A model generated the notes under the pieces. It saw nothing but the letters and a program-made list of their open reading frames with translations. It had not been told where the DNA came from and searched no databases. A stretch of 21,102 bases of DNA. It comes from a virus. Below are positions 2,906 through 15,581 of this stretch, in pieces. Made by a program: the position numbers and the translations under genes. Each line of letters opens with the position of its first letter. The first letter of the stretch is position 1. The stretch spans positions 1-21,102 of IMG/VR virus record IMGVR_UViG_3300034073_000481; one strand, written 5' to 3'.

Positions 2906-3847
2906 CTAGATGGACGCGATGGACTCCACGCGCTGGAGGCACTCCTCGCGGTAGCGAGACCAGCCGAGCAGGCCGTACCAGCCGACCGTCATGAAGCGAC
3001 GGAAGCGGTCGATCTGCGGGGAGACCACGATACCGGGCTCGATGGAGACGGCCTCTGCGAGCGCCTCCTTACCCATGATGAGGGTGCGATGCACCGTCGC
3101 GGACGACGCACCATCAGCCGCGCTGTAGGTACGCGGGGTCTCGATCCACTTGACGCCCTCGTACACACCGATCTCGCCCTTCCAGATGAGGTCGGTGCCA
3201 GTGCCGTTGTAGACGTGCGGGTCTCGCCAATTCGCGACACCTGTCTCGGCACGGAGGTCGTGACTAACATCCGGGTGAATGAAGCCGACGAAGTAGCCGT
3301 CATCAAACTCGAGGGCTGCACGACCGCGCATCTTGGCGACCGAGTAGCGAACCAGCTTCGAGCTGAACACGTCAGTGGCACCAACCGTGTTGGTCGGGCC
3401 AGTCGTATCGACATTGCCAGCGTTCGAGTAGACGACGTTGGTGCCCTGGCGAAGAACGCTAAGCACCAGCGAGTCGAGCGAGTTCCGCAGGTTGCGGGAA
3501 ACCAGCTCGGCCTGAGCAACGTCAATGTTGCTCAGCGAGAACTGGCGAAGGCGCAGCGTCGAGATCGTCGCGTTGCCGTACTCGTTCAGAGTGATGGAGA
3601 CCGAGGACGGGTTGGCCAGGGCCACCGCGTCTGGGTCGGTCGTTTCGGCCAGCGTCGACGTGGCGTTAGCCAGGTCGGCGTGGATGTACTTGGTGATTGA
3701 CGAACCGGGGTTGGTCAGGTCTGTGTACTCCACCGAAGCGAAGCGACGGAACATGGGCTCCGTCCAGAGCTGCATGTCAACGACCTTGGAGAAGGCCGTC
3801 TTGACAAGGTTCGTCAATACACCAGTTGTGGTAGGAACGTCAGCCAT
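2906..3847 (-). CDS. Major capsid protein, N4 gp56-type HK97 fold
   Basis: A 313-residue protein, ATG at 3847, with one of the best ribosome binding sites in the window (AAAGGAGG about eight bases upstream), as expected for an abundant product. The sequence matches the pattern of the N4 gp56 family of major capsid proteins: a region around residues 28-45 (LWTEPMFRRFASVEYTD), an Ile/Thr-rich stretch with GNATISTLRLRQFSLSNID (91-109), and the strongly typical DDGYFVGFIHPDVSHDLRAE (182-201), followed by WRDPHVYNGTGTDLIWKGEIG. These proteins adopt the HK97 fold and form the icosahedral shell. It follows the scaffold-like gene with 30 bases between. There is no long N-terminal delta domain, consistent with a separate scaffold. 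Length is slightly short for the family but nothing looks truncated. Confidence 0.93.
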   Translation of the reverse strand: MADVPTTTGVLTNLVKTAFSKVVDMQLWTEPMFRRFASVEYTDLTNPGSSITKYIHADLANATSTLAETTDPDAVALANPSSVSITLNEYGNATISTLRLRQFSLSNIDVAQAELVSRNLRNSLDSLVLSVLRQGTNVVYSNAGNVDTTGPTNTVGATDVFSSKLVRYSVAKMRGRAALEFDDGYFVGFIHPDVSHDLRAETGVANWRDPHVYNGTGTDLIWKGEIGVYEGVKWIETPRTYSAADGASSATVHRTLIMGKEALAEAVSIEPGIVVSPQIDRFRRFMTVGWYGLLGWSRYREECLQRVESIASI

Positions 3848-3877
3848 TCCTTACCCTCCTTTGTATTGGCGAGTGAG

Positions 3878-4351
3878 TTATGCGGAGCGAAGGACGGCCA
3901 TGAGCTCATCCATCGTCTTGGCGCCTGAGATGCGCGCCTCCAAGTCGGCGGGGACCGTTATGGTTGACTCTGGCCCAATCTCCGCCATTTCCATTCGGAC
4001 CTGAGACTCGGGCGCAGTCGGCGGTGCCGATGTCTGTCGAGTCTCAGTGTCCACTTCGCTCAGGCGTGCCCCTGAGAACACGTCGCCGTTCTCGTCCAGC
4101 CAAGATTTGATTGCATCTTCTGTGAGCTCGAGATCGGCTGGCATGAAGTTCGCCACCTTCGGACTAAAGCCGTTGTCTTGGAGAATCTGATTGAGATTCG
4201 CCTTGCGCTGGCTTGCCTTGAGACTGGCGTTCTCCTCCGAAAGCTCCTTGAGCTTGGACGACAACTCGTCGATCTTGTTTCTCAGCTTCTTGGGAAGGCT
4301 GGTCTCCTCGGCGTCATCGTCGAGCAGAAAGTCCAGATCATCCTGAGCCAT
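3878..4351 (-). CDS. Probable scaffolding protein (acidic coiled coil)
   Basis: I choose the ATG at 4351 because AAGGGAG lies seven bases upstream and the protein then begins MAQDDLDFLLDDDAEE; an in-frame upstream ATG at 4447 would add 32 unrelated residues with no good ribosome binding site. The 157-residue product has an acidic N-terminus, a predicted coiled coil at about residues 22-50 (heptad-like Leu/Ile with Lys and Glu), a short helical domain (52-97), a disordered Thr/Ser/Pro-rich linker (100-120) and a C-terminal helix. Small size, acidity, coiled coil and position immediately before the major capsid gene are all typical of phage capsid scaffolds, which line the procapsid and leave on maturation. 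No protease gene is visible next to it. Confidence 0.8.
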   Translation of the reverse strand: MAQDDLDFLLDDDAEETSLPKKLRNKIDELSSKLKELSEENASLKASQRKANLNQILQDNGFSPKVANFMPADLELTEDAIKSWLDENGDVFSGARLSEVDTETRQTSAPPTAPESQVRMEMAEIGPESTITVPADLEARISGAKTMDELMAVLRSA

Positions 4352-4370
4352 GGTGTATCTCCCTTGTGTA

Positions 4371-4385
4371 ACCCCGGTTCGGGGT
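4371..4385 (-). other. Short hairpin in the leader of the scaffold gene
   Basis: Bases 4371-4376 (ACCCCG) pair with 4380-4385 (CGGGGT) around a three-base loop. In the transcript it sits only a few bases before the scaffold gene's AAGGGAG ribosome binding site, so it could stabilise the 5' end produced by processing at the tRNA-like element. No T-tract follows, so it is not a clear terminator. Confidence 0.4.
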
Positions 4386-4482
4386 GTCGCCACGAGCGCC
4401 CAGGTCTGCCGGGGTAGCAGTTGGGGATGTGTGGCTATCGGACTCAATACGCGCGCAGGGGCCGATCGATCCTGCTGCGGAG

Positions 4483-4560
4483 TGGAGGTGCTGGGAATCG
4501 AACCCAGGTTGAGTCTGCTGCCTTCGTGAGGCTCTACAGTCTCCCTATCCGTTCACCCCC
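4483..4560 (-). tRNA. tRNA-like element with alanine-type acceptor stem, no normal anticodon arm
   Basis: Read on the minus strand, 4560-4554 (GGGGGTG) pairs with 4490-4484 (CACCTCC) to make a seven-pair acceptor stem, followed by A at 4483 as discriminator base. A perfect five-pair T arm is present (CTGGG, loop TTCGATT, CCCAG). The third acceptor pair is G-U, and with A73 this is the known minimal recognition set of alanyl-tRNA synthetase. The middle does not fold like a tRNA: the best seven-base anticodon loop (TCACGAA on a GCC/GGC stem) lacks U33. A longer hairpin (GAGACTG with CAGACTC, one A-A mismatch) closes the middle instead, rather like the tRNA domain of tmRNA. CCA is not encoded. 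It may be a degenerate tRNA or a functional tRNA mimic; acceptor and T arm are certain, identity is not. Confidence 0.6.
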
Positions 4561-4568
4561 GGGTGGGA

Positions 4569-4667
4569 CTAGCGCCCCGTGTGCCAGCGGTACCAGGCGT
4601 ATTTGTTGTCGCCTCGCTGCTGGCCTTGCTGGAGGATGATCTGCACGATTTTGTCGTACTGGGTCAT
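4569..4667 (-). CDS. Small 32-residue protein
   Basis: A short gene with ATG at 4667 and TAG at 4569-4571. It starts 12 bases after the stop of the 406-aa gene, and an unusually good ribosome binding site (AAAGGAAGG) sits in that gap about three to seven bases before the start, which is my main reason for calling it. The product begins MTQYDKIVQIILQQGQQRGD and ends in a Trp/Tyr/Arg-rich tail (YAWYRWHTGR). The first half could form an amphipathic helix. There is no signal peptide. I do not recognise it. Its stop lies just eight bases before the tRNA-like element, so it closes the upstream gene group. Confidence 0.55.
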   Translation of the reverse strand: MTQYDKIVQIILQQGQQRGDNKYAWYRWHTGR

Positions 4668-4679
4668 GCCTTCCTTTCG

Positions 4680-5900
4680 TTACACCTGGCCAATCCGGTT
4701 AGCGGCCAGGCTGGACTGCCCCAGTGCTGACGTTCCGCTGAACGCGGCACGTTCCCGACTGGCAAGCTTGCGCTTCTTAGTTGCAGTCTCGGCTCCACCG
4801 CCGAGACCGAAGGTCTCCTGGACCAGCTCGTCAGTGCTGGTCTGAACTCCGTAGAGCTGGCCAAGTCTGCGGTACGGGTTCTCCTGCATCCGGACCTGGG
4901 ACAGTCCGGCTGTGGAGCGGTTGTAGTCGTAGCCCATGGATGCGATCTGGTCGCGAAGTGAGGTAGACAAACCAAAGCCGACATCCTGAGCTGCACCACT
5001 AACATTGGCCTGACCGACCCTGCGGGTGTACTCGGACTCCAGGGCTGCCAGTGATTGCTTCTTACCCTCACTGGTGTCGAGCATGTAGGCAGCCATCTCG
5101 TCATTCGTCATGCCGTACAGGGTGCGCAACTGCTCCTTGACGGAGGCGGGTGCCACCATGTTGACGTAGTCCTTGGCAATCTGCACGCGCGAGGCCAGCT
5201 CTTGCGGGCTGACCTCGGCGGTCATGAAGCGCGCATAGTCAGCTCGAGTTCCGTAGATCTTCTCGAAGCCAGCGGCGGAGAGGACCTGGAGGTAGGCGCG
5301 CTCGTTACTGATGTACTCAGCTTCCGAGATGGCCATGCCCTTCTTCGACAGGGCATCCATGCCAGGGAACCGGGCCTTGTACTGGTCGGTCTTGCGCAAC
5401 TCGAGCTTGATCCAGTCCATGGACTTATCGCCTTGGAGCCATCCCCAGATAAGTGAAGACAGTGACTGTCCCTGCTGAGTTGCGGCATCGTCGATGCCGA
5501 ACTCAGTGAACCACGAGGTCAAGGTGTCGAGGGCGGATTGACGCTTAGCCTCCTTGTCGGCCCTTTCCCTATCGAGCCTGGCCTGCTCCTCAGGGGAGAC
5601 GTATCCGGGGGTCGGGTAGCCGACCCACTCCTGACCACTCCAGTAGAAGGTCATGCCGGGGACGACGGGCATTGGTGGTCGCGTATCCGTGACTGGGTCC
5701 GGGCCACTTACGGGAGTTGGGGATGTTCCCTGTGATGATCCGCCGAGGGCTCGGTAGTCAGAGCGCATCTCGGGAAAGTTGCCATGACCGTACTGCTTGG
5801 CAATCTGATTTGCCTTCTGGCGATCTTCCCGATTGCCAGATGCGTAAAGAGCCTGAGCTGCTGCGTATGCAGCGTCTTCATTAGCGTACTTTTTCGCCAC
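4680..5900 (-). CDS. Virion-associated protein, third of three coupled genes
   Basis: A 406-residue protein with GTG start at 5900, two bases after the preceding stop; no strong ribosome binding site is visible, so coupling to the upstream gene is likely. It has an N-terminal Ala-rich helical stretch (1-40), a Pro/Ser/Gly-rich linker (50-100, including YWSGQEWVGYPTPGY), a charged helix (102-122), then a helical body (123-340) containing KTDQYKARFPGMDALSKKGM near 170-189 and EYISNERAYLQVLSAAG near 195-211. The C-terminus is Ser/Ala/Gly-rich with a basic patch (TKKRKLASRERAAF). I recall this helical pattern from structural proteins of actinobacteriophages with unknown role. Context (giant protein and two similar neighbours upstream, scaffold downstream) favours an internal or ejected virion protein. 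No enzymatic motif seen. Confidence 0.65.
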   Translation of the reverse strand: MAKKYANEDAAYAAAQALYASGNREDRQKANQIAKQYGHGNFPEMRSDYRALGGSSQGTSPTPVSGPDPVTDTRPPMPVVPGMTFYWSGQEWVGYPTPGYVSPEEQARLDRERADKEAKRQSALDTLTSWFTEFGIDDAATQQGQSLSSLIWGWLQGDKSMDWIKLELRKTDQYKARFPGMDALSKKGMAISEAEYISNERAYLQVLSAAGFEKIYGTRADYARFMTAEVSPQELASRVQIAKDYVNMVAPASVKEQLRTLYGMTNDEMAAYMLDTSEGKKQSLAALESEYTRRVGQANVSGAAQDVGFGLSTSLRDQIASMGYDYNRSTAGLSQVRMQENPYRRLGQLYGVQTSTDELVQETFGLGGGAETATKKRKLASRERAAFSGTSALGQSSLAANRIGQV

Positions 5901-7015: not shown

Positions 7016-7902
7016 TACCTCACCGGACCTTGGAGGATGCCCAGGAAGGCGTCCATGAGATCAGTTGCTGCGCGATACTCCGCGTAGTCGGGACGAGACT
7101 GTGAGAACTCCTCGCTGAACTGAGCCGCATCGAAGCCGCCCTGAACAGTCTGACTCTGACTGGACGCACCAGCCGTGATTGTCTGGATCGTAGGGTTCTC
7201 TCGCTCACCCTCGTTCAGGGCCTCAAGGAACCTGCGACGCTCCTCCTTGGTTGCTTCGCGGCCAAGGTAGGAACCCATCGCCTGATTGATAAGGCGCTTG
7301 GCTGTATCGGCATTGGTGATGTTTGTCGTAGTGACCGTGGTGGTACCACCACCACCGCCTCCTCCACCGCCGTAGCCTCCTCCTCCACCGCCGCCCCCTG
7401 AACCAGGGGTGCCAAAGAACATCCCGGACGCAATGTCCCCAAGGATCTCCATGGGATCCCTGTTGATTCCCATCGAAAGCAGATTCTGAGACTGGGCTAC
7501 CGCCATCTGGAAGACCTGGGGGTACAGAGAGGGGCGCGACTTCGAGATGTCGTAGCCAGCGAATGCGAACGCGGCAGCATCGAGGAGGCGCAACTCGCTT
7601 GGAGTAAAGCGATTCCATCCAGCCCCACCGTCGACATACCCGTACAGGGGTACTTGGGTATACCCCTGCTGACCGCGACTGAATCCTGGAATGTAGTCCG
7701 TCTGGCCCTGCGGCAGGTACGAAGGAATCTTGATCGGAACCATCGGCTCCGGCACGGGGCCGTAAGTTCTATCCGAGTAGTAATACTGTCCGGTACTACC
7801 CTGCGTCGTCGAGCTCGATGTTGACGAGTTCTGGCTTGCCCTCCAGCGAGTGTATGCGTCTGGGCTTAGGTTCTCTCTTGCCCACTTGTCGCTCTGGGAC
7901 AT
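7015..7902 (-). CDS. Virion-associated protein with polyglycine linker
   Basis: A 295-residue protein; ATG at 7902 overlaps the giant gene's TAA by one base, with GGGAGGTG about nine bases upstream. Residues 1-100 are Ser/Thr/Tyr/Pro-rich and probably disordered. Residues 100-165 are helical (PSELRLLDAAAFAFAGYDIS). A nearly pure glycine tract at 168-186 and a Thr run join this to a second helical domain (197-240) containing AKRLINQAMGSYLGREATKE and a run of Arg/Glu. The C-terminus is acidic and Ser-rich. The LGR..T..E pattern occurs in phage structural proteins I have seen but cannot name. Together with the next two genes it forms a tightly coupled trio downstream of the giant protein, suggesting one assembly. 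Function unknown; an internal or ejection protein is the best inference. Confidence 0.65.
   Translation of the reverse strand: MSQSDKWARENLSPDAYTRWRASQNSSTSSSTTQGSTGQYYYSDRTYGPVPEPMVPIKIPSYLPQGQTDYIPGFSRGQQGYTQVPLYGYVDGGAGWNRFTPSELRLLDAAAFAFAGYDISKSRPSLYPQVFQMAVAQSQNLLSMGINRDPMEILGDIASGMFFGTPGSGGGGGGGGYGGGGGGGGGTTTVTTTNITNADTAKRLINQAMGSYLGREATKEERRRFLEALNEGERENPTIQTITAGASSQSQTVQGGFDAAQFSEEFSQSRPDYAEYRAATDLMDAFLGILQGPVR
7345..7401 (-). repeat. Low-complexity GGN tract encoding polyglycine
   Basis: A run of GGN codons in the 295-aa gene encoding residues 168-186, eighteen glycines broken by one tyrosine. The plus strand shows it as repeated CC-purine/pyrimidine triplets. It probably serves as a flexible linker and is a likely site of replication slippage. 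Confidence 0.85.
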
Positions 7903-10900
7903 TACGGAGCACCTCCCATGGCCATCTCAGGTTGCTGCAAATACTCACTCTGGAGAACGATTCGATCTTCGGGATCACCAGGAAGCAGCGTGTCGTAGTC
8001 GAGAAAGCGGTTGTAGAAGTCGGCAAACGCCAGGTTCTCTCGCTTCTTCTGCAAGACCCACTCGTCCCACATCATCTTGATGGGGGCATTCGTACTGGAG
8101 TTGATGTTCAGGCTCGCATCGTCGCCCAGCTCGCGCTTCTGCTCAATGAGGATCTGGCCGATCTCGCGGCGCTTGTCTCTCCACTCGGCGACATCCACCC
8201 ACAGTGGTTCGTCGCCGTGCGCATCCATGAACTTCTTGTTGCCCAGGATTAGGTCGATGTTCTTGACGACAGTCTTCCACTCGCCACGGTCGAACAGATC
8301 ACGCTGACGCTCCCACTCGGGGTTGGCTTTAGCGATGTCAGCCTCGAGGAGAACTTTGAGGTCCTTGAGGTCCTCGGCTCCGGTCTGCTCGAAGCTCGTC
8401 AAGCCCCGCTCCTCCAGCATGGCCTCAAGACCATTCATGCCGTCGCGGTACAGAATCCACCCTCGGGCCACCTGGCCCTTCTTGATGACATCCTCGGGGT
8501 CACCGCCACGCATCAGCGTGGTCGAGTTCTCGAATGCTCGATTCATCTGGTAGGCGTACACGGGCTGCGAGAACTCGCCCGCGTAAGGCGAGGTAATCAT
8601 CGCCACGTGGTCGATCTCGCCGCTCGTGGCCAGGTCACTGGCAAGCGTGGGGTTCTGCTCCAAGATCTTGTACTCACCTACCGAGGCACCCACGCCAGCT
8701 CGACCAGATGCCGACTGCGTGAGGTAGAAGAATGCCTGACCGTGCAGGTCGAGGAACTCCCTCAGTGCCGCCTGGTAGCCAATTGGCTTCTCGTCCGGAA
8801 GCGGGGCATTGAAGCGAGCTGCACTGTCCTGGATCTGCATGTGCTTGTCGCTGATCCGACGCCACTCCTCCACGTATGGCTGATACTTGGACTGGTAACT
8901 GGCTGCGAAGGGAAGCGTGAAGGACCCAACTGCACGCAACGCGAATAGCTCGCGGGCTCGAGCGGTAGCCTCCTCGGGCGTGGGCGGGTTTCCTTGACGC
9001 CCTCCACGCTCCCAGTCGATCGTCATGTCGCGGCGGATCTCCTCCACCGTGCCAACGAACTCGGCATCGCTCCAGCCGAGGATGGCCGTCAAGGCCCTGC
9101 GGGCCGTGGTCGGAGTGAATTGATCCAGGGCTGCCGCCCAGATCTGCTTCTCTGCCGTGGGCCTGGCGAAAGGCACCACGGTCTTGGTGATGGCATCACC
9201 AATCGGCAGGCCACCTGCCTCGAAGTTGATAATCGCGTCGGCATAGTCAGGCTTCTGCGCAGCGATCCAGCTCACGGGAACCGAAACGATCGGGCCGAAG
9301 TTCGTGAGCCAGGGGTAGTCGCCCTGAAGGGCGACGTTGAGCGAACCCTTGGAAATGCGGATCTGCCCCTTGGTGCCAAGGTCCAGGCCAGGGATCTTGC
9401 TGATGTTGTCAGCAACACCCTGCGGCAGGGAGAACTGGAGGTACGCCTCCCCCGGCGCGAACAGCGCCTCGGGGAGTCCGAAGATTCCGCGCTTGGCCTC
9501 GAGCGGGTTACCCTCGCCATCGACGACCATACCCATCGAGTTGGGTGCGTTGTAGATCTGGACGTAGCGCATGAGGTTCTCGGGACGCTGAGTAAACTCG
9601 CGCGACCAGAAACGAAGCGCATTCTCCCAGGCCGGGAAGAACGGGATGAGTAGGCCGAGCGCAGCGGCAGGGGTCGACAGACGCGAGATCGTGTAGGTCG
9701 TCTCGCGGGTTGCGCGCAGCGCACCCGCGTGGGCCGAGCGCCGCATAGCATCGACCTGAGCCGGAGTGAACGAGGTCACTCCATTCATTTCGTACTCGTC
9801 AACCTGCTGCTGCATCAGCTCCTTCCACCGCTTGCGGTAGAACGGGTGACGGATCAGATTGTCCTCGGGGATAGTGCCCAGTCCAGACATGGCCCGATTT
9901 AGGAACCTGCGGTATAGGTTCCCAATCTCGGCTAGTTCCTTCTCCTCGATGGTGACAAGGTCGTCACGCCAGGCGAGCTTCGCCTGAAGCTGGTCCGGCT
10001 GGAGCGGTCCACGCCCAGCCGCAGCCATCAGCTCATCATCGGGAAGCCACTGGTAGACCTTCTCGCGCAGTTCGGCAATAGTCGTCTCGAGGTTTGCCGT
10101 GTCGTAGATGCCTGTCCTCACACCCTGAAGGAAGGCGTCATCCTGCACGAGCTCGCGAATGAGTGCCTCATTCTGGGCGGCGATAGCGTCAGGATCATCC
10201 AGGGCAACTCGCGGCTGCTGGATGATGCGCCGCATGATCGGGTCCTGGCGAATGTTGTCATTGACTAGACCAGTCATGGCCAGCCAGTAGCGGTCGTCAC
10301 CGGGTGTGTACTTGACGAAGTTGAAGGATCGCTCGTACTGGGCGTAGCGATTTTGCATGTAGCCCACGATCATGAGGTCGTGGAAGCTCCCCGAAGACGC
10401 CAGGCTCTGATACTGACCGGAGAGGGCCTCGTTCGGATCAAATACCTCGCCCGTCTCGAGTCGAGCCTGACCCTGGCGACCAACGATCTCTACGCGCTTC
10501 TCGCTCTCGACTCCACCCGTAACCACCTTGCGGCGAGCCTTTGGGCGTAGGCGATCAAGGGAATCGCCTAGCTCCTTGAGCGTCGCCCGTCGCTGACCGA
10601 CAGACTTGTTCAGGTTGGCGCCAATGCGATCCAGTTCGCGCATCTTGGCCATGTCGTCGGCGTACTCAGGACTCTTGGCAAGGATCGCAGCCATGCGATC
10701 ATCGACCTCGTCCTTGAGGCCGAGACGAACGTAGGCCAGGCCGGCTCCGTCCTGACCGATCAGCTCAGAGGCTGACAGTAGGACGGGTTGCTTACCCCTC
10801 GATGTCGGCAAAAGGATGTGGGTGAAGCTGCCACGCTCCATAAACATGGCGAGCTTGGCCTTGTCGTTGCGACTAAGTGTGCCACGAAATGCACGCTTGG

Positions 10901-13900
10901 CCAGTGCGGGGTCGTACTCCTCCAGGATCTGGCGACTTGCGGAGCCAGTGCTGATGTCGATGACGGAGGGGTTACCTCGGCCTGCCTCGGCCACCTGGCC
11001 GGGGATCAGGTTGTCAAGGAAGCCTTCGTTGGTGCCAACCATGTCGGGCACGAACAGTGCCCGGAAACCCTCGGTGGTGGCGGGGTCATCTACGAGTACC
11101 TTGCCGTAGCCACGCTCACGTGCGTACTGCGCAAGCAGTCGCTCGATCCTTGCGTTAACCGCGCCGAATCCTTCACCCGGCTTGGGATTAGTGATTGACA
11201 TGGAGCGGGCGTCATAGGGAAGCTTCTCCATGACTTCGCGACCCGCAACTGCCTGATCGAGCTGACTCGCCAGTCGATTCACCCTAGTGACTGTCGAGAC
11301 GTACTCAAGTCCGACATCGGAGATTTCATCCAGTCGGGTGAGGGGAAGATCCTTCGTCCACCAGACGTGCGTGGGGCCACTGGCGTATGTATTGGTAATG
11401 ATGCCGTCATAGCCAGCGCGACGCATAGCGTCGATAATGTCGTAGGTCGGTCCTACTCCCGGTGCGCCAAGATCATCAACGACTGAATAGGCAAGTGTCC
11501 GCACCCGACGCCATACGTCGGCGACTCGCTCATTTCCGGGAAGCGTTGACTCCAGGCTAGTGCGAATCCTGCTTCCGATAGTTTCCCCGCTAGTGCCCAG
11601 GGAGAACTTGGGATCATCCAGAACCTGGATCAGGTCCTCCACCTGAGGATTCAGTTCACCCGTGGCGCTAATGACAGGTGCGTCAACGTCCATCCATGCG
11701 TACCCGGCTGGATCGGGGAGCATGTACACGACGGGCTCGTATGGAGCAGAGCTGGGCGATCCAGCCTGACCAATGGCCTTCATGATGTGGGCCATGTGGT
11801 AGTCGCTGGTGACTCCGCCGTCGCCAGTGGCCGAGTAGATTCCGGGACCATTCAGTAGCTGCATGGTGTTCCCGTCAACAAGGACATCAGTGGCGACATC
11901 GTTGTAAATGACCGCACCAGAATGCTCAGGGAAACCAGTATTGCCGTATCTCGACTGATCTCGGAGCATCGCTTCGAGGTCGTTGCGAATATTGCTGGCG
12001 TCTTCAATGTCACGCGAGATACGAGATTGCCTGCGAACCAGCTTCTTTAGCTCAGCACTGGTGAGGATGAGCTTATTCTTGGTTGCCCACTCCATGAAGT
12101 CGTCAGGAAGACGATCAGCATTGTCCCGAATCCACTTGCTTACGGCTACAGCCCTAGCAGCCTGCGGGTTAGACTCAAGGGCGTTGAGGAAGGCGACGAT
12201 ATCGTTCTGGGCTACTGGCGCATCGGGCCCTAGTAGTCGCGTAAGCGCGGACGTTAGCTCAGTGGAGAGTTCCTCCACTTCCTCTGGCGAATAGACTCGG
12301 GCCTGCCCCGGCTCCCTGCCTCGCTGCTGAATCTCAAGGAAGCGATCCATTGCTGAGCGAGCAGTTGCAACGTCTCTGGCCACGTTCATCGTCTCGGCCT
12401 GGACGTTCGTCCGAATGTCCAGAACTCCGCCGTAGACATCGGCCTTGGCATAGCGAGGATTCACTGACTTGGGAACCGCGACGATTGCACCGGAGTTGAA
12501 CTCATCAAAGGTAACATCGTCGAACGTGCTAGAGCGAATCACCTTGAATCGTCCGTCTCGGTCAATACGACCAATCCGGTAGTCGGACTTGGCGAGCTGA
12601 CGCAGGCGGCGTACATACGCAGCCTGGAGCATGTCCTGATGCTCGAACGCAGCAGCGTCATCGACCCACGCGCCAGCGTTCTCGTCCCAGTAGGCGGCAA
12701 CAAACTCGTCGTAGTTGCGCAGCATGCTTGGCGTCATGAAGTCGCGCGGCGAGAGCTCGTCGGCCATGCCGCCGATCTCCACTGCCTCTGGCCCCATCAT
12801 GGATCGCGTCAGAGCTTCGGCGTCAGCGACGCCTACTCCCGTGGCCGGGTCCGGCTCGAGTAGTCCACGAGCGGTGATCGAGCTGGTGGCGTTCGGGTCA
12901 TAGATAAGAGTGTCTGCGGTGTCCAGCATGCGGACCTGAGCTTCGGTCAAGTCCTCGGAGATCTGGGTCCAGACTGGTGATTCCATCACCTGCATGTTGG
13001 TCCTACTGCGACGCAGGAACTCCTGCTCGGCCGCTCTGCGCGCAGCCTTTCGACGCCTGGCCATCTGCTTGGCCAGTGCGCGCCGCTCCTCACGATTGAG
13101 CTTGAGGTCTGCAAGGTCACGATCTTGCTGCTGGCGCATCTTAGACATGTTGCGGCGGATCTTTCGTAGGCCCTGCCGCTTGACGATCATGTTGCGGAAG
13201 CGGTTGGTCCCCCCGGCGATACGGTCACCGGCATTGAGAAAGAAGTTTTTTGAGCTTGTTCCGACATGGCCAGTGGTCGGAACCTCGCCGAACGCGGCGA
13301 GTGTGCGCAGGTAACCCTCGGCGATGTTGCGCTGGGTGTAACCCAGGCGGAGGAGAACCAGCGGGCGCCACACGTAGTCGATGACGGTGAGCAGCTTCTC
13401 GGCAGCGCCACGTCCCTTGCGAGCTCCCCACCCCGAACGCTCGATCTTGATCGAGTCCTGGAGCCACTTGAAGTCCATGAGCGTGTAGCCGTTGCGCTGG
13501 GTTGCCAGAGTCATCTCATCAAGAACGACAACTTCTCCGTTATCGACAACCCACTTGTGGTTGGCCAGGTGCCCACGGATGAACGACCTTCGTGCCACGT
13601 ACTTCTTTGCGATCTCCTGCATGGCTGCCGGGGACTCCCCGAGGGCCGCGCCCATGGCCTCAACCATTTCCATCTCGAAGCGCTCAGCGAACGCAGCCTT
13701 GGCTGCGGGAGTGGACAGAGCGACATCCTGTGCCTCGGACAGGAGTCGTGTGCGGAACTCCTCGACGGTCTCTGAAACGGTGTCGCCATTGGGGAGGCGG
13801 CGAGTGATCAGCCTGCCTTCCCCTGTCTGCTTAGCGGCCCTGCGAAGGAAGGGTGCAGTCTCGAGTGCTGCGCGGAACTCGCGCATGAACTCGACGTTGT

Positions 13901-15581
13901 CCTGGAAGTTGAGCACGCCCGTCTGGCGATGCTTGCCCAGGTAGTCAAGACCGCTTCGGATATTGACGAATCGAATGCCGCGATTCATTCCAGGGAGCTT
14001 GATGACTGTGTGCTCATAAGCGGAGCCAGTGAAGCGCTCCATGCGGCGCTGGGCCTTGGCTTGCATGCCGCGCGCGGAGCGCTTGCTGTAGACGCCAGCT
14101 CGCTTGTCGTAGCGGAAGGTCCGACCACGACCGCCACGGGTGGCCCGCCCAATCACCGGAGTGAGGGACACCTCTGTCCCGAAGCGACCCGTGGTAAATG
14201 CCGAGACGGTGTCAGCCTTGGCTACGTCATCCTTGAGGGACTTGACGGCACCCTCTGCGATATCGGCGAGCTGGTCGTAGTGGTCCAGGTTCTGCGACAC
14301 GTCGGTGCCGAAGATCGCCGCGTAGTTGTCACCAAGGTCGGTGTAGTCATCGAGGTTGCGGTCGGCTCCGTTGCGGATATTCCACCGCAGAGCGTCGAGT
14401 TCTTCCTTGGCGCCCAGCAGATTGTCGTACAGATCGAGGCGCTCAGCCTTGAGGCGAGCTGCTGATCCGTAGTCACCGAGCATTGCGAGGAAGGCGTCAG
14501 CCGCCTGCTCCTTGCTGTCGAACTGGGTGCCAACGATTGAAGCAACCAGGGCCGGATTGTCCGAGTCCAGTACGATAGGGTGGTGGGCAGCTTCCTCGGG
14601 AGTCATGCGGTAGATCTCGTCGATGAGCTGGCCCTCAGCGGTAACCTCGACGCCTGCGTTATGTGAGATCACGCGAGCCTTGAACTCGCCAGGATTGATT
14701 GATCCCCGAGCCCCACCCGTAGCGAGTACCTGCTGGGTGGCCTTGCGGTAACCACCCATAAGACCCTTAGCCACGAGAACGTCAATGCCCACGGCGATGG
14801 CGATGGTTGCATCAGAGGCCCCAGTGATCCAGCGACCGAGGCCCTGATTGAAGGCTGAGTCTTTATCGTTCTCGTCAAAGGGATCGAAGTCTGAGTGCAG
14901 TCCCATCAACCACGAGCGCAACTGGCGCTCGTTGGTGGGATCAGCTAGTCGTGCCGCATTGTCCGCCTCGATGTAGGCGTCAAGCTTCTTCTGCATGTCT
15001 AGGCCGACGATGCCGTTGAGGAACTTGATCCGATCGGCCCAGGCGATACCGATCGCCTGGCCGGGAGTAATTTCCGCGTCCCAGACCTGACCGTAGTAGT
15101 TCCAGATATCACCGAGAGTGACGCCGTCCGTGGGATCTGCGTCAAAGCGAGTGACGTAGCTCGGGTTGTTCAGGGCCATCGTGGTGCCCGCAACAACCGT
15201 GTTGAATGCACGGAAGGGGGCGTCGACTGCCTGCATGAACTGTTCGCCAGACTGCTGCGGAGTCTGGTCGGTGATTCCCTCAACTACCTGATTGTCGGGA
15301 CCAACCGCATCGAAGTACGGACGGAAGCCGCGCGTACCCGTGTACGTCTGACGCTGACGCGCCTGTGGGCCAGAGGTGTAGTCGTAGCGCTTGACTGCAC
15401 CCATGAAGTCGACGTACTCAGCGGACGTTCCGTCCGCGAGTGCCGGGGTGTAGGTGGGCGCGTTCTGTGCATCAATGCGTGCCTGGGTGTCGTACTGGGC
15501 TCGTTGCTGCTGCGTCTGCTGCTGCTGAGCGTAGACGTAGCTACTGCTCATGGACGAGCGAAAGTCGGAGAACTTGCTCAC
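7902..15581 (-). CDS. Giant virion/ejection protein with ADP-ribosyltransferase-like segment
   Basis: A 2559-residue protein with GTG start at 15581 and a strong AAGGAGG site eight bases upstream; the GTG overlaps the previous TGA. Visible parts: Gln-rich N-terminus (15-45); hydrophobic stretch 256-276; VWRPLVLLRLGYTQRNIAEG (737-756), a motif I associate with large phage polyvalent proteins; a very basic helix (800-862, about 40% Lys/Arg); an ADP-ribosyltransferase-like region (about 1215-1410) with HSG near 1220, NGPGIYSATG at 1244-1253 and RRAGYDGIITNTY at 1387-1399, where the usual final Glu is not evident; hydrophobic stretch STPAAALGLLIPFFPAW (1969-1985); helical C-terminus. I see no RNA polymerase or peptidoglycan hydrolase motifs. 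Size, place between portal and capsid genes, and coupling to three virion-like genes suggest a protein packaged in the head and ejected with DNA; this is inference. The enzymatic segment may be inactive. Confidence 0.75.
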   Translation of the reverse strand: MSKFSDFRSSMSSSYVYAQQQQTQQQRAQYDTQARIDAQNAPTYTPALADGTSAEYVDFMGAVKRYDYTSGPQARQRQTYTGTRGFRPYFDAVGPDNQVVEGITDQTPQQSGEQFMQAVDAPFRAFNTVVAGTTMALNNPSYVTRFDADPTDGVTLGDIWNYYGQVWDAEITPGQAIGIAWADRIKFLNGIVGLDMQKKLDAYIEADNAARLADPTNERQLRSWLMGLHSDFDPFDENDKDSAFNQGLGRWITGASDATIAIAVGIDVLVAKGLMGGYRKATQQVLATGGARGSINPGEFKARVISHNAGVEVTAEGQLIDEIYRMTPEEAAHHPIVLDSDNPALVASIVGTQFDSKEQAADAFLAMLGDYGSAARLKAERLDLYDNLLGAKEELDALRWNIRNGADRNLDDYTDLGDNYAAIFGTDVSQNLDHYDQLADIAEGAVKSLKDDVAKADTVSAFTTGRFGTEVSLTPVIGRATRGGRGRTFRYDKRAGVYSKRSARGMQAKAQRRMERFTGSAYEHTVIKLPGMNRGIRFVNIRSGLDYLGKHRQTGVLNFQDNVEFMREFRAALETAPFLRRAAKQTGEGRLITRRLPNGDTVSETVEEFRTRLLSEAQDVALSTPAAKAAFAERFEMEMVEAMGAALGESPAAMQEIAKKYVARRSFIRGHLANHKWVVDNGEVVVLDEMTLATQRNGYTLMDFKWLQDSIKIERSGWGARKGRGAAEKLLTVIDYVWRPLVLLRLGYTQRNIAEGYLRTLAAFGEVPTTGHVGTSSKNFFLNAGDRIAGGTNRFRNMIVKRQGLRKIRRNMSKMRQQQDRDLADLKLNREERRALAKQMARRRKAARRAAEQEFLRRSRTNMQVMESPVWTQISEDLTEAQVRMLDTADTLIYDPNATSSITARGLLEPDPATGVGVADAEALTRSMMGPEAVEIGGMADELSPRDFMTPSMLRNYDEFVAAYWDENAGAWVDDAAAFEHQDMLQAAYVRRLRQLAKSDYRIGRIDRDGRFKVIRSSTFDDVTFDEFNSGAIVAVPKSVNPRYAKADVYGGVLDIRTNVQAETMNVARDVATARSAMDRFLEIQQRGREPGQARVYSPEEVEELSTELTSALTRLLGPDAPVAQNDIVAFLNALESNPQAARAVAVSKWIRDNADRLPDDFMEWATKNKLILTSAELKKLVRRQSRISRDIEDASNIRNDLEAMLRDQSRYGNTGFPEHSGAVIYNDVATDVLVDGNTMQLLNGPGIYSATGDGGVTSDYHMAHIMKAIGQAGSPSSAPYEPVVYMLPDPAGYAWMDVDAPVISATGELNPQVEDLIQVLDDPKFSLGTSGETIGSRIRTSLESTLPGNERVADVWRRVRTLAYSVVDDLGAPGVGPTYDIIDAMRRAGYDGIITNTYASGPTHVWWTKDLPLTRLDEISDVGLEYVSTVTRVNRLASQLDQAVAGREVMEKLPYDARSMSITNPKPGEGFGAVNARIERLLAQYARERGYGKVLVDDPATTEGFRALFVPDMVGTNEGFLDNLIPGQVAEAGRGNPSVIDISTGSASRQILEEYDPALAKRAFRGTLSRNDKAKLAMFMERGSFTHILLPTSRGKQPVLLSASELIGQDGAGLAYVRLGLKDEVDDRMAAILAKSPEYADDMAKMRELDRIGANLNKSVGQRRATLKELGDSLDRLRPKARRKVVTGGVESEKRVEIVGRQGQARLETGEVFDPNEALSGQYQSLASSGSFHDLMIVGYMQNRYAQYERSFNFVKYTPGDDRYWLAMTGLVNDNIRQDPIMRRIIQQPRVALDDPDAIAAQNEALIRELVQDDAFLQGVRTGIYDTANLETTIAELREKVYQWLPDDELMAAAGRGPLQPDQLQAKLAWRDDLVTIEEKELAEIGNLYRRFLNRAMSGLGTIPEDNLIRHPFYRKRWKELMQQQVDEYEMNGVTSFTPAQVDAMRRSAHAGALRATRETTYTISRLSTPAAALGLLIPFFPAWENALRFWSREFTQRPENLMRYVQIYNAPNSMGMVVDGEGNPLEAKRGIFGLPEALFAPGEAYLQFSLPQGVADNISKIPGLDLGTKGQIRISKGSLNVALQGDYPWLTNFGPIVSVPVSWIAAQKPDYADAIINFEAGGLPIGDAITKTVVPFARPTAEKQIWAAALDQFTPTTARRALTAILGWSDAEFVGTVEEIRRDMTIDWERGGRQGNPPTPEEATARARELFALRAVGSFTLPFAASYQSKYQPYVEEWRRISDKHMQIQDSAARFNAPLPDEKPIGYQAALREFLDLHGQAFFYLTQSASGRAGVGASVGEYKILEQNPTLASDLATSGEIDHVAMITSPYAGEFSQPVYAYQMNRAFENSTTLMRGGDPEDVIKKGQVARGWILYRDGMNGLEAMLEERGLTSFEQTGAEDLKDLKVLLEADIAKANPEWERQRDLFDRGEWKTVVKNIDLILGNKKFMDAHGDEPLWVDVAEWRDKRREIGQILIEQKRELGDDASLNINSSTNAPIKMMWDEWVLQKKRENLAFADFYNRFLDYDTLLPGDPEDRIVLQSEYLQQPEMAMGGAP

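Follow-up and report, generated by a model that had tools for sequence, protein, structure and literature searches.

The 21,102-nt stretch of viral DNA analysed here (the window) contains, within its late operon, a 78-nt element whose identification as a tmRNA cut down to the tRNA-like domain (TLD) is well supported by covariance models and by comparison with relatives. The element is no chance fold: it is found by the Rfam tmRNA model (RF00023) with an E-value of 2e-12 over 56 kb and by a model built from other viruses (R1, described below) with an E-value of 1.3e-11 over the 383 kb searched, and its relatives show compensatory changes. The features of the region are listed in Table 1.

Table 1. 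Positions of the element, its parts and neighbouring features in the window.
Feature	Position	Strand	Details
Message-less tmRNA (tRNA-like domain only; predicted)	4483..4560	-	78 nt without CCA, 5' end at 4560; R1, Rfam tmRNA and fold
Acceptor stem, 5' strand	4554..4560	-	GGGGGTG (G3 of G3·U70); sequence and pair table
Stemless D-loop region	4544..4553	-	AACGGATAGG, GG kept
Central arm, equivalent of tmRNA P2	4511..4543	-	hairpin CC-UCACGAA-GG replaces message/pseudoknot ring
T arm	4491..4507	-	CTGGG-TTCGATT-CCCAG; sequence
Acceptor stem, 3' strand	4484..4490	-	CACCTCC (U70); sequence and pair table
Discriminator A73	4483	-	CCA not encoded, ACT after acceptor
H-type pseudoknot	4437..4475	-	7 nt 3' of element; stem 1 GCAGG/CCTGC, stem 2 ATCGG/CCGAT
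32-aa ORF	4569..4667	-	MTQYDKIVQIILQQGQQRGDNKYAWYRWHTGR; stop 8 nt 5' of element
Structural/internal protein gene (406 aa), upstream of element	4680..5900	-	phrog_8424 2.2e-54
Head scaffolding protein gene, downstream of element	3878..4351	-	phrog_7813 5.9e-20, phrog_172 2.8e-4
Major head protein gene	2906..3847	-	phrog_1357 1.3e-61

Read from 4560 to 4483 on the minus strand, which is that of the late operon, the element is GGGGGTGAACGGATAGGGAGACTGTAGAGCCTCACGAAGGCAGCAGACTCAACCTGGGTTCGATTCCCAGCACCTCCA. Its unconstrained RNA MFE fold (-30.1 kcal/mol, z -2.2) consists of exactly the acceptor stem, the T arm and one long hairpin, with no D stem and no anticodon arm. The central helix is formed by GAG.A.CTG/CAG.A.CTC plus GCC/GGC. 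A preliminary description of this DNA had listed a 7-bp acceptor with a G-U third pair, an A discriminator and a perfect T arm within 78 nt, all of which are present at 4483-4560, and had proposed a long hairpin made of a GAGACTG/CAGACTC-type helix and GCC/GGC, with no five-pair anticodon stem with U33, which the MFE fold confirms. The element is thus real at the position given, the minus strand being a point that the earlier coordinates did not state outright.

The Rfam tmRNA model aligns with the window element from model position 1 to 374 (39.6 bits), about 290 positions, corresponding to the message, stop codon and pseudoknot ring, being deleted. The T arm, the P2 helix and the alanine-identity acceptor of tmRNA (7 bp, G3·U70, A73) are all found in it. 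The mRNA-like domain (tag ORF and pseudoknot ring) is missing, and the P2-like arm closes as a hairpin. The gathering cut-off of the family is 47 bits, and the window's own copy alone would therefore escape annotation; Rfam run on the whole window at gathering thresholds called nothing at the element. ARAGORN, which the preliminary description had proposed as a check, called neither a tRNA nor a tmRNA there, whereas the covariance models do match. Relatives occupying the same genomic slot were aligned in the same way: in eight slot phages the match again runs from model position 1 to 374, four of them exceeding the cut-off with 65.0 (L168), 56.4 (L179), 50.2 and 50.2 bits (L148/L174), and the others having 45.9, 43.4, 39.5 and 36.1 bits. 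Further scores are 45.7 bits for L131 and 35.6 bits for L014.

The D-loop signature of tmRNA, GGTTTCGAC, is found in L168 and L179, and the D-loop of L131 is GGTTCGAC, the general form of the signature being GGWTTCGAC. In the window the D-loop is stemless and keeps the GG, but reads GGATAG against this signature, and the slot subfamily mostly has GGNNAG in its place. The earlier suggestion, a tmRNA tRNA-domain lacking the message part, is borne out by the end-to-end match with the message deleted, by the signature in these two relatives, and by the conservation of G3·U70 and A73.

R1 is a covariance model made from 26 message-less tmRNAs of other viruses and those of two isolates, with no slot elements in its training. 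It locates the window element at exactly the same two ends, with 50.9 bits. R1 gives ordinary tRNA-Ala genes about 22-40 bits; this sets the window element apart, but the weakest slot members (32-38 bits) cannot be told from such genes by R1 alone, and for these members it is therefore the shared slot and pseudoknot that carry the argument. A permuted tmRNA was considered and rejected, as longer pieces align cleanly end to end with the unpermuted Rfam tmRNA. With a 301-nt piece, Rfam gave a truncated tmRNA match (20.8 bits) that is misleading, having taken in upstream coding sequence, and weak mascRNA-like and permuted-tmRNA matches that are superseded by the longer-piece alignment. ARAGORN calls of a tRNA-Ile in L073 and of a permuted tmRNA in L131 look like misreadings of the slot element.

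PHROG matches identify the window as a tailed-phage late operon on the minus strand, with the gene order terminase large subunit, portal, a 2559-aa protein, three structural/internal proteins, the element, scaffold and major head protein. The giant 2559-aa protein (7902-15581, minus strand) belongs to phrog_10618, a family with no assigned function, and is probably an injected or internal virion protein. The 32-aa ORF is inserted just before the window element, and is missing from the near-identical L005/L006. In many lineages the element begins 5-8 nt past the upstream stop codon, and in slot lineages it ends a few nt ahead of the pseudoknot; no promoter-like site was found near the window element. 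In L168, an opposite-strand ORF of 162 aa (3711-4199, plus strand) and a tRNA-Asp-like gene (4272-4343, minus strand) immediately precede the slot element. Judged by the capsid (about 42-44% identity), the isolates closest to the window are Streptomyces phages belonging to Immanueltrevirus and relatives. In Immanueltrevirus Treat and Abafar the same slot, from the upstream structural gene to the scaffold and capsid genes of a related late operon, holds ordinary decoding tRNAs (22 genes in Treat, 14 in Abafar), and R1 matches only tRNA-Ala and other tRNAs there, at low score. The preliminary description had allowed for an ordinary tRNA at this place instead of the element: such arrays do occupy the slot in the Streptomyces relatives, but the tRNA-Ile-like gene in the slot of L128 stands alongside the element.

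In nine IMG/VR contigs the capsid is 99-100% identical to that of the window, and seven of them carry the element, identical or with 3 changes. The closest variant (L013 and others) differs at 3/78 positions, two of which are a compensatory change from A-U to G-C in the central helix, the kind of change that the preliminary description had suggested looking for. Homologues in the same slot were found in about 30 distinct related phage sequences, more slot types being gathered through the conserved block 3' of the element, capsid searches and a T-arm pattern. The slot types differ wholly in middle sequence, and widely in arm and loop length, yet adjoin the same pseudoknot and scaffold gene. Among 32 distinct slot elements, G-C is constant at pairs 1-72 and 2-71 and G·U at 3-70 (32/32), while pairs 4-69, 5-68, 6-67 and four of the five T-stem pairs vary on both sides. 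The free loss of pairings that would have spoken against the element is not seen, and the decayed tRNA offered as an alternative in the preliminary description is refuted by this covariation.

G3·U70 is also present in 64/64 other viral message-less RNAs. For the slot elements, U70 and A73 were preset in two of the search patterns, which permitted A3-U70, a pair not seen among the intact elements from those searches. The elements found from the capsid, to which this presetting did not apply, all have G3·U70 (L014, L033, L059, L073, L100, L126, L127, L129, L131 and L132). The exceptions are broken or minimal forms, namely L165 and the L124 minihelix (both A3-U70). Bare minihelices, with acceptor and T arm joined by a connector of about 9-13 nt, are seen in the slot of L153 (13128-13168), L171, L124 and L125, most having G3·U70 (L125 and L153/L171). 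Pattern matches in L138, L139, L144, L032 and L044 were set aside as chance. When a host was sought by way of prophages, no slot element was found by running the slot pattern over 84,980 species genomes, the structured matches being mainly ordinary tRNA-Ala.

The pseudoknot 3' of the element is itself conserved. Across 30 sequences, 96.6% of cells pair and two-sided changes occur in 8/10 pairs; its covariation score is 0.546, against 0.193 when shuffled (0/500) and at most 0.14 when slid. It is present without the element in most related freshwater phages and in ct2KA10, and a search of these with R1 gave no element. The element is therefore dispensable, conservation reaches further for the pseudoknot than for the element, and the slot that precedes the pseudoknot is a site of RNA genes: the element, tRNA arrays, and the tRNA-Ile of L128. 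No Rfam match was obtained for the pseudoknot in this 5' leader of the scaffold gene. Does it act in mRNA stability, or in autoregulation of the scaffold? A conserved block downstream of the element was considered as a repeated phage promoter and rejected, since each genome has a single exact copy. The remainder of the scaffold leader (4352-4436, minus strand; about 2015-2095 in L014) looks structured and possibly forms a second pseudoknot; in several lineages a CCCC.. stretch of the leader appears to pair with AAGGG close to the ribosome-binding site.

A BLAST search started from the L168 element identified an unannotated message-less tmRNA in two isolates. In Streptomyces phage Shaeky (MT701595; L279 2994-3072) it lies inside a tRNA gene array, and in Stenotrophomonas virus Jojan60 (ON045087; L280 1994-2073) near four tRNA genes and primase; the Rfam tmRNA scores are 59.3 and 61.8 bits, respectively. 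The Jojan60 RNA has its CCA encoded, and has in common with slot elements the apical loop CC-CACGA-GG. A message-less tmRNA pattern (D-loop, 20-46 nt, T-loop, UCCA, with the acceptor 5' strand free) matched at least 120 stretches in IMG/VR viral contigs, these counts being of sequences and not of independent origins; the number of chance matches, estimated from the number of fixed bases, is well under one. Among the matches listed, 80 loci were kept, all with a complementary acceptor and G3·U70. In a scan without the acceptor constraint, G3·U70 was found in 76/80 kept, the remainder being three chance matches and a copy that has lost 2 nt. The same pattern was run on genomes from two bacterial phyla, 396 around a Microbacteriaceae genome and 398 around one labelled Bordetella, and matched none of them (0/794). 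An ordinary tRNA lies within 1 kb of only 13/80 viral loci. Many of these RNAs, from unrelated viruses (L281-L360 and slot elements), share an apical hairpin CC-N-CAYG-N-GG with an A-rich internal loop (AAARCC) ahead of it, which may be a binding motif.

The likely fate of such an RNA can be sketched from what is known of tmRNA. Alanyl-tRNA synthetase needs G3·U70 and A73, which are always present in tmRNA, and the 5' ends of tmRNA are made by RNase P (PMC3968760; PMC3985003). A message-free complex of alanyl-TLD, SmpB and EF-Tu has been crystallised on a stalled ribosome, according to the account in PMC3968760 (citing Neubauer et al. 2012). A molecule similar to the DS6A TLD is described in PMC4131195 (citing Mao et al. 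2009) as strongly inhibiting tmRNA, perhaps by titrating SmpB, whether chargeable or not. On balance, we lean towards a TLD-only tmRNA that is released from the late transcript, accepts alanine, and competes for SmpB and stalled ribosomes with the tmRNA of the host. The element would be excised as a tRNA is, by RNase P at 4560 and by 3' trimming and CCA addition at 4483. The alanyl-tRNA synthetase of the host would then charge the excised RNA, which together with SmpB and EF-Tu, also from the host, would enter or block stalled ribosomes. No SmpB gene was found in 12 phage contigs, and a host partner would thus be needed. Because the RNA holds no message, translation could not resume, so that it would compete with host tmRNA and short-circuit trans-translation in late infection. 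A secondary and compatible effect would be that the late mRNA is divided by this excision, the pseudoknot then lying close to the 5' end of the scaffold-capsid mRNA.

An inhibitor of the DS6A type, which reportedly works uncharged, does not by itself explain the strict G3·U70. Such strict alanine identity exceeds the needs of a mere SmpB sponge, which favours a charged RNA that enters the ribosome. In tmRNA, A15, U17 and G19 matter for the contact with SmpB (PMC8363625), and given the GGNNAG D-loop, SmpB binding may be weakened in the window subfamily. The viral abundance, together with the 0/794 bacterial genomes, suggests that phages may use these RNAs to interfere with ribosome rescue. We put forward more tentatively that message-less, alanine-chargeable tmRNAs could be a widespread virus-specific class that blocks or reroutes host trans-translation, with the window family as a divergent late-operon branch beside a pseudoknot.

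The main rival is that the fold is kept only for RNase P and the tRNA 3' enzymes to cut the late mRNA, the released RNA being functionless; a cut between the internal-protein and scaffold genes would leave a pseudoknot-capped capsid mRNA. Cutting by RNase P is plausible in itself, given how tmRNA 5' ends are made and that the slot also takes ordinary tRNAs, and the fold and position of the element suit cleavage at the acceptor 5' end, the predicted site. The rival can also draw on the constancy of the slot, tightly set between stop codon and pseudoknot, on its alternative contents (Streptomyces tRNA arrays, the added tRNA-Ile of L128, and the minihelices of L153/L171 and L124/L125), and on the lack of a promoter-like site nearby. 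As the only function it nevertheless seems unlikely, since it leaves the invariant G3·U70 unexplained (we know of no requirement of RNase P for this pair), similar RNAs are found at other places, such as the Shaeky tRNA array and beside primase in Jojan60, and many relatives without the element still keep the pseudoknot and gene order. Both effects, processing and competition with host tmRNA, can hold together. It is rather improbable that the alanyl-TLD takes the nascent chain and is then released, which would free ribosomes and leave unfinished phage proteins undegraded, a helpful outcome. The strict alanine identity does suggest that charging matters, but we know of no route by which a peptidyl-TLD is released without a message.

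Mitochondrial tmRNAs without a tag frame do persist with SmpB, and are thought to aid incomplete mRNAs (PMC11915505), while the only tested analogue is inhibitory, on the account given in PMC4131195. A decayed tRNA or tmRNA, or a chance fold, would account for the silence of the annotation tools and for the drifted D-loop motif of the slot subfamily; it is very improbable, because two-sided changes preserve acceptor, T-stem and central-arm pairs across strongly diverged relatives, and E-values are near 1e-11. Least probable of all is an ordinary alanine tRNA with an unusual anticodon arm, its loop UCACGAA being read as anticodon ACG. The element has no D stem and no U33, no RF00005 match was reported for it, its relatives differ widely in loop and arm length, and the loop sequence is not conserved in them as an anticodon, even though the apical loop has 7 nt if the top pair is opened and tRNA-Ala reaches 40 bits with R1.

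Mycobacteriophage DS6A carries a TLD-only tmRNA, as described in PMC4131195 and PMC11915505 (Mao et al. 2009), and is the one phage named for it in the 2014 and 2025 tmRNA surveys (PMC4131195, PMC11915505), other cases being jakobid and oomycete mitochondria and two plastid sequences (PMC11915505; PMC4131195). Compared with DS6A by description only, the window element is likewise phage-borne and essentially the tRNA-like domain alone, with no tag reading frame; it agrees with the DS6A type in being unpermuted and in a phage genome. The slot family is unlike that description in its mostly GGNNAG D-loop, its 3' pseudoknot and its fixed late-operon place. Standard bacterial tmRNA (ssrA, RF00023) shares the G3·U70 and A73 acceptor, the stemless GG D-loop, the P2 arm and the T arm, but has the message, stop codon and pseudoknot ring missing here, and its P2 is not hairpin-closed. 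The jakobid and oomycete mitochondrial tmRNAs and the ~65-bp Mallomonadaceae plastid tmRNAs are also without a tag reading frame, but are organellar, the mitochondrial gene usually being permuted, whereas the window gene is viral and unpermuted.

As far as the literature searched goes, the viral abundance, the two isolates and the slot family with altered D-loop and 3' pseudoknot are new. The class appears common in uncultured viruses and occurs in two isolates, against none of the 794 bacterial genomes. If these RNAs act on SmpB or stalled ribosomes, they would give phages a small RNA with which to counter the main ribosome-rescue system of bacteria, and why an inhibitor reportedly active uncharged keeps its alanine identity so strictly would become a question. 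The annotation tools used here mostly miss message-less tmRNA genes. A further RNA resembling a tmRNA TLD, with an imperfect acceptor and no pseudoknot, is seen at 10433-10503 of L166, a seemingly unrelated 62-kb contig; it has an GAACGGTTTCC D-loop, a long arm and a TTCGACT T-loop.
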